Positions 19,447 through 24,862 of a stretch of 64,000 nucleotides of DNA are shown piece by piece; position 1 is the first letter of the stretch; every line of letters begins with the position of its first letter. Under the pieces are notes generated by a model. That model did no database searches, had not been told where the DNA came from, and was given only the letters and a program-made list of their open reading frames with translations. This stretch comes from Hydrogenovibrio crunogenus (GTDB lineage: Bacteria > Pseudomonadota > Gammaproteobacteria > Thiomicrospirales > Thiomicrospiraceae): positions 1,178,001 to 1,242,000 of the forward strand of contig NZ_CP032096.1 of assembly GCF_004786015.1 (NCBI RefSeq), given 5' to 3'. Both the position numbers and the translations under genes were made by a program.

Positions 19447-21675
<2,229 letters not shown>

Positions 21676-21702: not shown

Positions 21703-21735
21703 AGCCCGTAAAAACAGCCAGGCCTGGCTGTTTTT
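21703..21735 (+). terminator. Terminator on CCAGGCCTGG; left arm of a 25-bp inverted repeat
   Basis: Positions 21710-21735 are a 26-bp perfect palindrome with core decamer at 21718-21727, acting as the icd terminator. The 25 bases 21703-21727 recur, reverse-complemented and without mismatch, at 24832-24856 on the other side of the cassette array. Confidence 0.88.
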
Positions 21736-21740
21736 GATAT

Positions 21741-21769
21741 TAAAAGCCCGCTTTATGCGGGTTTTTTAA
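21741..21769 (+). terminator. Second terminator after icd
   Basis: AAAAGCCCGC and GCGGGTTTTTT form a short stem with a T-run directly after the palindromic terminator, closing off the core-gene side of the accessory region. Confidence 0.85.
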
Positions 21770-22130
21770 TGTAGATTTATCCGTTTTTTAAAGGAATGAC
21801 GTCACTTGTTGTTAAACTGAGAGGAAAAAAGTGTGACTGTTTTGCTCGTGTCACATTTTAATCGAATGCATGCTCCATTTTTTATGCATAAACAGCAAAC
21901 TAAGCCTATTTTCGTATAGAATAATACTTAGTTCGGATGTATTCACACATCAAAGGCAAAAAACATGGTTTAGGCACTATTGTTTAGGCCTTATAAAATA
22001 ACTTTTTATTTTAATTAAGTTAATAAAACAATTAGTTACATATTATGCCTCACCAAAAATATAACAAAAAACATCAATTTTATAAGTTATTGACCTACGT
22101 AAAAAATATAAGTTAGGATGTCTAATAATA
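21770..22130. other. AT-rich non-coding stretch before the cassette array
   Basis: No plausible gene lies here. It is AT-rich, with a small dyad AACTAAG (21898-21904)/CTTAGTT (21927-21933) and several GTTA-containing sites (GTTAGGA at 22112). It may hold a promoter or a remnant attI, but I see no convincing integrase-proximal sequence or -35/-10 pair. Confidence 0.5.
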
Positions 22131-22135
22131 GTTAG

Positions 22136-22753
22136 ATGAAAAAAGATATGGATGCGATTTCAAACTTTATTAGTGAGCTGAAGAAGCAGAAAAACACCCC
22201 TACAGTCTCAAACCCATATCTTGTGGCTGGTGTAGCAGAGAATCTCGAAGCCTACCTAGATTCAATGTTAAGTATTGATGGGAAAAGAGTTATATTGGTT
22301 GGAGAAGCGCCGGGTTATAAAGGATGTAAAATTACGGGCATTCCCTTTACAAGTGGAAAGGTCTTTGAAAAAGTCAAACATCCACTCTTGCTAAAAATTA
22401 AAGAGAAGTTAGTTCTTACAGAAATTGAAGCAGAGAATACGGCAACTATTGTCTGGAACTACTTATCAACGAAAACAACCACCCCTTTGTTTTGGAACTC
22501 ATTTCCTTTTCATCCACACCCGGAAGGCAATGAAAATAAAAATCGAGCGCCAACAGATGATGAAATTGAATATGGGGTTATGTTCTTACGTACATTGTAT
22601 GAAATATTCAAACCAGAGTTAGTGGCTGGCATTGGTAATTCAGGTCTAAATTGTGCGAAACGCGCTTTTCCGGGAGTTTCGGTCAAATACATAAGGCATC
22701 CGTCTTTCGGTGGGAAATCCGAGTTCATAGAAGGTATGAATGAAATCATCTAA
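22136..22753 (+). CDS. Uracil-DNA glycosylase-superfamily protein (cassette gene 1)
   Basis: A 205-aa protein with the UDG fold signatures. VILVGEAPGYKGCKITGIPF (about residues 52-71) resembles motif 1 GEAPGxxE...GxPF of family 4/5 enzymes, with Lys-Gly-Cys in place of the usual acidic pair. NSFPFHPHPEGN is a central motif. LVAGIGNSGLNCAKRAF is the nucleotide-pocket strand-helix, and RHPSFGG (near residue 193) stands for the HPSP-type motif 2. No Fe-S cysteine set is apparent. It may remove damaged bases or be an inactive DNA-binding relative. ATG 22136 overlaps the GTTAGAT junction; ATG 22148 is an alternative. Its stop codon lies inside the following attC site. Confidence 0.75.
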   Translation: MKKDMDAISNFISELKKQKNTPTVSNPYLVAGVAENLEAYLDSMLSIDGKRVILVGEAPGYKGCKITGIPFTSGKVFEKVKHPLLLKIKEKLVLTEIEAENTATIVWNYLSTKTTTPLFWNSFPFHPHPEGNENKNRAPTDDEIEYGVMFLRTLYEIFKPELVAGIGNSGLNCAKRAFPGVSVKYIRHPSFGGKSEFIEGMNEII

Positions 22754-22828
22754 CAAAATGCTCAAGTTCGTTCGCTTTCGCTCACTGGGACACTTGCTTC
22801 GCTCGTGACCCTTAGCATGGCGTTAGCC
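22748..22828 (+). repeat. attC-like site 1
   Basis: It begins with ATCTAAC (22748-22754), an exact RYYYAAC core that contains the gene's stop codon, and ends with GTTAGCC (22822-22828). Inner arms ATGCTCAAG and CCTTAGCAT pair imperfectly. The middle TTCGTTCGCTTTCGCTCACT / CTTGCTTCGCTCGTG is the sort of sequence common in attC stems. Length about 81 bp. Confidence 0.75.
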
Positions 22829-22842
22829 ATCAAGGTAATCAA

Positions 22843-23487
22843 ATGACTTTAAAGTGGAGTAGTCAAAGAACTATCGCGAATAGCAGAATCGTTAAAACAT
22901 CTGTTATTTGGCTATTTATAGTCCCGTTTGTTGCTAAATTACTATCAACCATTGATGATGTAATACAACTTACAATTTTTGAAGGCTCTATTTCTATTTC
23001 GACTGTTCTGCCATTTTCGTGGCAATTATTATTTTTTGCGGCAATATCTTTTACTATTGCAGGAATAATTTATTCAATTGCATGTCCTGAAATAGTTAAA
23101 AACTATGAGAATCATGCTCAGTTTGAATCTGATGGTAAAACCAGGTTGCAAATTAATTCAGCTTTAAAAGATATGGCTTGGGACCAATCAGACAAAAAAT
23201 TCAAAGAGAAATATGTTTCATTTGTGAAAAAATATCTTCAAACATACAGCAAGCTACCCTTACAGTATAGTGATGAAAACCTCAATAAAGACGGAGTTTC
23301 CCTATTGGAGAATATTTCCGATATTGAAGGGAAAAATAGCAACGCATTCTATTATGTATATGAATTATCAGATACACATGGGCAACCATGGATATGGTCT
23401 TCGCTTATTTTCTATGTTGTTGGTTTTATTTGCTTTACGATTATCGGTATTCAAAATATTTTGTATGTTGTTGAAACATTTGGCTAA
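22843..23487 (+). CDS. Hypothetical membrane protein (cassette gene 2)
   Basis: A 214-aa protein I do not recognise. Three hydrophobic segments are visible: about residues 22-40 (VIWLFIVPFVAKLLSTI), 54-78 (LPFSWQLLFFAAISFTIAGI) and 187-207 (SSLIFYVVGFICFTIIGI). Between the last two lies a charged, roughly 100-residue soluble region rich in Lys, Asp and Asn. No enzymatic motif is evident. AAGGT (22832-22836), six bases before the ATG, sits just inside the cassette boundary, and the stop codon lies in the next attC site, as usual for cassette genes. Base composition is AT-rich compared with the neighbouring core genes. Confidence 0.65.
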   Translation: MTLKWSSQRTIANSRIVKTSVIWLFIVPFVAKLLSTIDDVIQLTIFEGSISISTVLPFSWQLLFFAAISFTIAGIIYSIACPEIVKNYENHAQFESDGKTRLQINSALKDMAWDQSDKKFKEKYVSFVKKYLQTYSKLPLQYSDENLNKDGVSLLENISDIEGKNSNAFYYVYELSDTHGQPWIWSSLIFYVVGFICFTIIGIQNILYVVETFG

Positions 23488-23542
23488 CAAAATACTCAAC
23501 CCGACCGCGCTAACGCGCGGCGGGTTAGCTTAAACGTTAGTT
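23482..23542 (+). repeat. attC-like site 2
   Basis: It runs from GGCTAAC (23482-23488, including the stop codon) to GTTAGTT (23536-23542). The stem CCCG-A-CCGCGC / GCGCGG-CGGG is perfect apart from one unpaired A, the extrahelical-base arrangement expected of attC. At 61 bp it is a compact, well-formed site. Confidence 0.78.
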
Positions 23543-23734
23543 CCGATGCTTGCGCGTCGGAACTAACGGGTTGCGGATTGCCATCCACTTGTGTCCCGCG
23601 CAAGCGCTGGACTAGCAAGCGAATGGGGCGGACAGACCTTATGAAAATAAATTTTCAACGGACATGCCGCTTATCCGCAGCCCTTTATAAGTCCGTAATC
23701 CTCCCAACTTCAAATCAAATATAAGGTGAAACAA
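23536..23734 (+). other. Non-coding part of cassette 3 with nested inverted repeats
   Basis: Perfect 11-bp arms lie at 23536-23546 and 23557-23567 (GTTAGTTCCGA / TCGGAACTAAC), so the GTTAG core of attC2 is mirrored. Immediately next, GGGTTGCGGAT (23568-23578) can pair with ATCCGCAGCCC (23673-23683), with one G-U. The two structures span about 150 nt without a credible ORF. It could be a decayed cassette, a long attC, or an RNA gene. Confidence 0.5.
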
Positions 23735-24106
23735 ATGCCGTCAAATTTTAAAGGTCTTGAAAAGTTACAAAAGAATATGCACGAACTAAGTGAAAAAACG
23801 GAAATAAAACTTACTGAACTTATGAATCCTAGTTTTGTTGCCAGTTGTTCAAAGTTCGACTCAATTGAAGATTTATTTGATGCCAGCGGATTTTCTATTG
23901 AAAGTCCTGAAGATTTTGCCGAAATCCCTGATGATGAGTGGGAGGAATTTATCGTAGGAAATACTTCGTTTAGTTCATGGAATGAAATGCAACAGTATAC
24001 AAAACAGCAGTTGCATAAGGCTTCTAACAAGGCACTCAAGCGGACTGCGCTAAAGCGCAGCTCGCTTAGCTTAGTCGTTTGCATGTATGTACCGAACATA
24101 GGGTGA
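23735..24106 (+). CDS. Small hypothetical protein (cassette gene 3), C-terminus read from attC
   Basis: A 123-aa acidic protein. ATG 23735 is preferred over GTG 23726 because AAGGTG (23723-23728) is spaced six bases from it. From memory it resembles short hypothetical proteins common on mobile elements that pair an N-terminal FKGLEKLQKNMHEL helix with SFVASCSKFDSIEDLFDASGF and a DFAEIPDDEWEEFI segment. I assign no function. The last ~27 residues (SNKALKRTALKRSSLSLVV...) are translated from the attC site, because the frame runs through the TAAC box without a stop. This tail is probably not ancestral. Confidence 0.6.
   Translation: MPSNFKGLEKLQKNMHELSEKTEIKLTELMNPSFVASCSKFDSIEDLFDASGFSIESPEDFAEIPDDEWEEFIVGNTSFSSWNEMQQYTKQQLHKASNKALKRTALKRSSLSLVVCMYVPNIG
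24022..24085 (+). repeat. attC-like site 3, degenerate right core
   Basis: The left box TTCTAAC (24022-24028) is followed by stem AAGCG..CTGCGC / GCGCAG..CGCTT, perfect across both segments. The right box reads GTTTGCA (from 24078) instead of GTTAG, so recombination at this end may be impaired. Confidence 0.6.
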
Positions 24107-24115
24107 GTTCTTCGA

Positions 24116-24760
24116 ATGAATACTAAAAAAAAGGCCTATTGCCATAAGTGTCGACAAGATACGAATCAAACTTTGTTATTCGCAGAGACGGAATATGATA
24201 CCCGTGAAGTGTTTTTCGAAAAGCTTCAAGGAGAATCTCGGTGGGTAGTTGAACAAAGGCTATGGAATCTATCCAAATGTTTAGGTTGTGAAATGCTTAA
24301 CTTGGAAATAGAGACAATTCACATAGGTAATTCAAATACATCAAAAAAACAAATGCCCGGCAAATCCAGAAGGGTTGTTCCTTCTTGGATATTTTCACTG
24401 GAACGGCCATATATTGAGTTACTGGCGGAGGTATATACAGCATTTAATAATGGTTCTTTTAGACTGGCATTGATGGGCGTTAGAGCAATATTTGATATCT
24501 TTATGCAAGAGAAGGTTGGAGACATTGGGGGATTTAAAAAGAAATTACTAGAGTTGAAGAAGCTACATTTAATCAATTCTACCCAAGTAGATTTACTCGA
24601 TGCCGCTATTGATGCAGGTAGTGCAACAGCACATCGAGGGTACAATCCAAGTGAAGAAGTTATGCACTCAGTTATGGATATTGTCGAACATCTACTTAAG
24701 TCAATCTCATTAGAAAACAAGCTAATTGAAATTACTAGCTCGACGCCTAAGAGGGAATGA
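24116..24760 (+). CDS. DUF4145-type protein with N-terminal zinc ribbon (cassette gene 4)
   Basis: A 214-aa protein. The N-terminus has two CxxC pairs (CHKC near residue 9, CLGC near residue 60), a likely zinc ribbon. The C-terminal half has the helical pattern of DUF4145 (YTAFNNGSFRLALMGVRAIF, then DAAIDAGSATAHRGYNPSEE). This domain also occurs with restriction or nuclease proteins, but stand-alone copies such as this are uncharacterised. GGGTGAG lies about seven bases before the ATG. It is the last gene of the array. Confidence 0.7.
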   Translation: MNTKKKAYCHKCRQDTNQTLLFAETEYDTREVFFEKLQGESRWVVEQRLWNLSKCLGCEMLNLEIETIHIGNSNTSKKQMPGKSRRVVPSWIFSLERPYIELLAEVYTAFNNGSFRLALMGVRAIFDIFMQEKVGDIGGFKKKLLELKKLHLINSTQVDLLDAAIDAGSATAHRGYNPSEEVMHSVMDIVEHLLKSISLENKLIEITSSTPKRE

Positions 24761-24763
24761 CAT

Positions 24764-24791
24764 GCATAACTAAAGCATCAAGTTCGCTTAG
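24764..24791 (+). repeat. Truncated attC-like remnant (site 4)
   Basis: GCATAAC (24764-24770) followed by TAAAGCATCAAGTTCGCTTAG parallels the left half of attC site 1 (TAACAAAATGCTCAAGTTCG). No GTTAG right box follows; the only candidate is GTTACCC at 24802. The array end appears broken. Confidence 0.5.
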
Positions 24792-24824
24792 AAAAGGGGA
24801 CGTTACCCTTTGATTGAAAAATAA

Positions 24825-24862
24825 AAAACCACCAGGCCTGGCTGTTTTTACGGGCTTTTTGT
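24825..24862 (+). terminator. Chimeric terminator; right arm of the 25-bp inverted repeat
   Basis: The left half (AAAAAACCACCAGG) matches the amiB-type terminator at 938. The right half from CCAGGCCTGG through ACGGGCT (24832-24856) is the exact inverse of 21703-21727. The two halves no longer pair fully beyond the decamer, so this is a hybrid joined at the palindrome. Confidence 0.75.

Follow-up and report, generated by a model that had tools for sequence, protein, structure and literature searches.

Introduction

Clusters of attC sites that lack a neighboring integrase gene (CALINs) are, according to surveys, roughly as frequent as complete integrons, and their origin, by loss of the integrase or by off-target insertion, has mostly been inferred so far. 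A sequence-only reading pointed out such a cluster in a 64-kb stretch of the chromosome of Hydrogenovibrio sp. SP-41, a deep-sea vent dweller (C1:1178001-1242000; the genome is one contig of 2,453,259 bp, and the whole stretch is hereafter called the window). Is this array an orphan cluster of attC sites, or is it what is left of a complete integron?

Results

attC sites lie between co-directional genes

The covariance model R1 was trained on 15 attC sites, all located outside the window, which were taken from the genome's own intact integron and from integrons in relatives. The search of the 64-kb window with R1 returned exactly three matches, all on the plus strand (40.9, 29.6 and 24.7 bits), at the gene ends where the sequence-only reading had placed attC sites (Table 1). 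Zero matches at E≤10 were returned from 400 kb of control DNA of the same genome (twenty 20-kb stretches outside the window). R1 gave only 12 matches across the whole genome, at four places: besides the window array, these are the intact integron (near 1.45 Mb), a group of sites around 1.105 Mb and a single site at 1.538 Mb.

The sites show R and L boxes and a stem with an extrahelical base and lie between co-directional genes. The four small open reading frames, all on the plus strand, and the GTTAGAT at 22131-22137 were found as claimed. Stop codons were said to fall inside the boxes; this held for genes 1 and 2, which stop within the R'' box, and did not hold for gene 3, which reads through its attC, or for gene 4, which stops 3 bases before the box. 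The Rfam scan of the region found nothing at the attC sites. A strict regular expression for attC boxes gave only chance matches in the window because the attC cores there deviate, and the covariance model was used instead.

Table 1. Features of the array and its surroundings. Positions are those of the window.
Feature	Position	Strand	Evidence or remark
Left edge: CCAGGCCTGG terminator repeat, then CCCGCTTTATGCGGG hairpin	21718-21761	+	Downstream of isocitrate dehydrogenase (IDH) gene (19456-21675)
intI pseudogene remnant	21798-21980	-	tblastn with the genome's own IntI, E 1e-5 and 7e-4
attI site and leader	21981-22135	+	Crossover G at 22131 (GTTAG); conserved core 22104-22135
Weak candidate cassette promoter (Pc), TTGACC-18-TAGGAT	22090-22119	+	Consensus scan, no more matches than in shuffled sequence
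Cassette 1: divergent uracil-DNA glycosylase (UDG) superfamily protein, 205 aa	22136-22753	+	Pfam UDG 34.2 bits, cut-off 24.3
attC 1	22748-22828	+	R1 24.7 bits, E 0.0028
Cassette 2: predicted membrane protein, 214 aa, no family	22843-23487	+	ORF and family searches
attC 2	23482-23542	+	R1 40.9 bits, E 4e-7
ORF-less mini-cassette	23536 to about 23687-23690	+	GTTAG palindrome and large structured attC-type site
Third gene: 123-aa protein, frame through attC 3	23735-24106	+	Residues 7-92 match phrog_2211, E 4.5e-17
attC 3, core mutated to GTTTGCA	24022-24083	+	R1 29.6 bits, E 2e-4
Last cassette: DUF4145 protein, 214 aa	24116-24760	+	Pfam DUF4145 39.6 bits, cut-off 23.1; phrog_1305 E 4e-18
Truncated or degenerate terminal attC with AAAAGGGGACGTTACCCTT end motif	24764-24808	+	R1 6.1 bits only
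Right edge: second CCAGGCCTGG terminator repeat, native to IDH/GIY-YIG intergenic region	24824-24855	+	Alignment with G007 empty site

An attI site and a dead integrase gene precede the first cassette

The claim that the window holds no integrase proved true of a working gene only, since a dead intI fragment precedes the array. An intact intI adjoining attI, as in a complete integron, is missing: codons 1-23 and 76-113 are retained, the start ATG has become ATA, an internal deletion of about 145 bp and an in-frame stop are present, and the rest is gone. By blastn, 21913-22135 was 76% identical to the attI region and intI start of the intact integron (E 8e-38). Farther from the cassettes, 21794-21899 matched deeper intI sequence, with the order of the intact integron preserved (68% over 116 bp, E 2e-7).

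Judged by this homology, the start of the array is a predicted attI, as expected of a complete integron. It was 75% identical to the attI of the intact integron over 182 bp. The last 32 bp, taken as the core, matched at 30/32 positions and the remaining 150 aligned bp at 107 (71%), a difference with a hypergeometric p of 0.004 for a core that was chosen by the analyst and without correction for that choice.

A five-codon frame, ATG TCT AAT nAT AGT TAG, was also observed at 22118-22135, where it terminates within the GTTAG core, immediately before the ATG of the first cassette. The frame recurs at the corresponding position of the genome's two other attI sites and may be due to chance; it recalls the short leader frame of the class 1 attI.

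The cassette genes are rare and scattered

The match of the third gene to phrog_2211 covers the end of a phage protein family, in which no function is assigned. Relatives of the cassette genes were rare among 369 genomes of the class, and relatives of two of them were found together in none of the other genomes sampled. The four genes are thus not one co-inherited block in these genomes, and their scatter fits independent cassettes. No attC matches flank the UDG relatives that other genomes encode (67% and 51%), which thus give no evidence of the gene being a cassette elsewhere. In a plasmid collection, only distant UDG and DUF4145 relatives (<60% identity) were found, and neither the mini-cassette nor the membrane protein of cassette 2 had a match. 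PADLOC gave nothing in the region beyond one weak match. AlphaFold without an alignment produced poor models, with a pLDDT of 54 for the membrane protein and 66 for the 100-aa body of the third-gene product.

An ORF-less cassette is shared with the intact integron

A fifth cassette, which carries no open reading frame and had been overlooked by the sequence-only reading, lies between attC 2 and the third gene. A mutation has changed its right core from GTTAT to TTTAT. This 152-bp unit is present in the intact integron as three full copies and a partial one, to which the mini-cassette of the window is 94.7% identical. Because this identity is set against 71% for the attI outside its core, the comparison suggests that the mini-cassette was exchanged between the two arrays after their platforms had diverged.

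Other gammaproteobacteria have intergenic relatives of the unit, which fold alike and show compensatory change in 10/35 pairs, a count that comes from only a handful of independent lineages and is suggestive. One relative has an intI piece and a standard attC close by. We favor reading the unit as a different type of attC, which here forms a gene-less cassette.

Relatives of the unit at L200:1500-1618, L200:2124-2243 and L194:1501-1622 were seen to separate cassette-like genes in other gammaproteobacteria, including a BrnT/BrnA-like pair (named by eye). They make up an attC family whose apical hairpin is conserved and which the standard-type model barely detects.

Two further integron loci and a probable third are present in the genome

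A search for intI elsewhere in the genome, as the sequence-only reading had proposed, yielded a full-length IntI at C1:1453441-1454385 (485 bits, cut-off 265), about 253 kb from the window array and the nearest to it. It belongs to an intact integron at C1:1450.1-1454.4 kb, which has its own attI and a minus-strand array of five genes, including those for an AhpC/TSA protein and a Cass2 integron-associated protein.

A second relic follows lpdA at C1:1104110-1107670 (L175:5111-8670), about 95 kb upstream of the window array. It starts with an attI of the same lineage, beside which no more than the first codons of intI survive; the array, on the plus strand, has six cassette genes and a truncated last attC. 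Among its products are a PD-(D/E)XK-like and a HEPN-like protein, neither of which reaches the Pfam cut-off. The lpdA relic and the window array share an attC subfamily. The attI identities were 75% between window and intact integron, 70% between window and lpdA relic, and 85% between lpdA relic and intact integron. In 518 kb of the genome, the AAAAGGGGACGTTACCCTT end motif was found once at the window array, twice at the lpdA relic and nowhere else. With the exception of the mini-cassette, no cassette is common to the window array and the other arrays of the genome.

In three relatives (L203, L204 and L205), the cargo after lpdA was different, encoding a small membrane protein, an ATPase-like protein and a DNA methyltransferase-like protein (named by eye). 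Since each of the three has its own cargo, the site downstream of lpdA seems to be a gene-insertion hotspot in the genus.

An intI fragment was also observed at C1:1537447-1538479 (L016:9448-10480). It covers residues 4-58 with 34% identity to the intact IntI, and beside it are an IS fragment and a single gene that has an attC (33.9 bits). This is probably a fourth integron remnant, of another lineage.

A close relative carries the empty site

In G007, the closest relative among the genomes compared (IDH at 91%), the IDH and GIY-YIG genes are separated by the terminator alone, which represents the empty site. In the other members of the genus that were examined, the IDH locus lacks both the GIY-YIG gene and the array. 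Among the loci obtained by an IDH search of genome contigs for syntenic relatives, none carries a GIY-YIG gene, an IntI or the cassette proteins, and YebC lies downstream in one of them alone (L018). The left edges of the window array and the lpdA relic resemble each other: 21710-21771 aligns with its lpdA counterpart over 63 bp at 90% identity. The hairpin in this edge is native to lpdA in relatives and absent after IDH in G007.

The palindrome CCAGGCCTGG, often inside AAAAACnnCCAGGCCTGGnnGTTTTT, was counted 77 times in 518 kb of the genome vs about 0.5 expected in random sequence, and its positions in the window include 947, 16543, 21718, 24832, 25160 and 30991. Most copies are terminator-like, and they possibly also serve as an uptake or repeat signal.

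Discussion

The region 21718-24855 can with high confidence be taken as the remains of a complete chromosomal integron sited between the IDH gene and the GIY-YIG gene, with a dead intI, a retained attI and five cassettes (four with genes and one without) put in singly at attI by an integron integrase. The window array is a degraded complete integron, not just an orphan attC cluster, because attI and the decayed 5' end of intI are retained upstream. The sequence-only reading was right in calling it a real array with no working integrase nearby and wrong in treating it as an orphan.

In the proposed course of events, a complete integron would have inserted between the two genes, and its integrase gene would then have decayed to the dead fragment while the attI docking site stayed. 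An integron integrase, acting on folded attC sites, would have placed the cassettes one by one at attI, a process that would account for the single orientation and unrelated contents of the genes. The ORF-less cassette may have been swapped with the intact integron after divergence of the two attI sites, and the intact IntI of the same genome could still move the window cassettes in trans.

Other histories were weighed. Small co-directional genes would also be seen if the region were an ordinary operon or a genomic island and the hairpins between its genes were terminators rather than attC sites. That reading is contradicted by the attC-specific covariance-model matches, the attI, the intI remnant and the ORF-less cassette common to the intact integron, and we give it almost no credence. 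CALIN formation by off-target cassette insertion has been proposed, and the genome does encode an intact IntI, which might have put cassettes at a secondary chromosomal site where an integron was never present. Such events would not bring an attI flank and intI coding sequence, both of which are present in the right order; a true CALIN is thus contradicted by the intI remnant and appears very improbable, if slightly less so than an operon or island.

A further account concerns the route by which the integron reached the IDH gene; it is compatible with a decayed integron and is a rival to separate acquisition. Both relics may have been copied from one ancestral integron at lpdA, the IDH copy arising via recombination between dispersed CCAGGCCTGG repeats and intI being lost separately in each. 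The shared left edge, with a hairpin native to lpdA and absent from the IDH locus of G007, the end motif found at both relics and nowhere else in 518 kb, and the common attC subfamily all favor copying. However, the window attI is the outlier of the three, which misfits a simple recent copy, and terminators of both types adjoin elsewhere too (C1:378582-378654). We therefore regard this account as possible and of some weight, yet on balance somewhat doubtful.

Returning to the decayed integron, one intact IntI may act in trans on two more platforms that belong to its attI lineage and have dead integrases; their attI cores would be kept by use, so that these CALINs would be satellites rather than fossils (a "distributed integron"). 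We consider this proposal rather unlikely. Frequent recent use of the window array is argued against by the damage to several sites (the attC 3 core, the mini-cassette core and the terminal attC), and the conservation of the attI core could reflect promoter constraint instead.

Here the DNA itself still records the lost integrase, and the same cell has an intact sister integron, which makes both the origin of a CALIN and its possible use in trans directly testable. IntegronFinder seeks attI in class 1 integrons only (PMC9024848). With current software, which ignores the attI of other classes and would overlook short remnants of intI, decayed integrons come out as orphan clusters.

Comparison with known systems

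In Table 1 of PMC10295459, based on IntegronFinder, SP-41 is listed as 'CALIN, CALIN, Complete, CALIN', and the window array is probably among these three CALINs, which are given there without description. The element is of a known kind, well preserved, and not a new kind; with the CALINs of SP-41 already on that list, the new detail here is the attI and intI relic and the links between loci. The array resembles a CALIN as defined by IntegronFinder (PMC9024848) in having at least two attC sites, here three matches, and no working intI nearby, and unlike a plain CALIN it keeps a recognizable attI and a piece of intI. With the complete sedentary chromosomal integron at C1:1450.1-1454.4 kb it has in common the attI lineage, the attC sites and the ORF-less mini-cassette, and it differs in having no working integrase. 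The mini-cassette alone resembles conserved attC families of the VCR kind. Its sequence is different from that of the VCR; the likeness is that a large structured site recurs as an intergenic spacer in other gammaproteobacteria, next to a toxin-antitoxin-like pair and beside an intI, and is scored marginally or not at all by the standard-type model R1.
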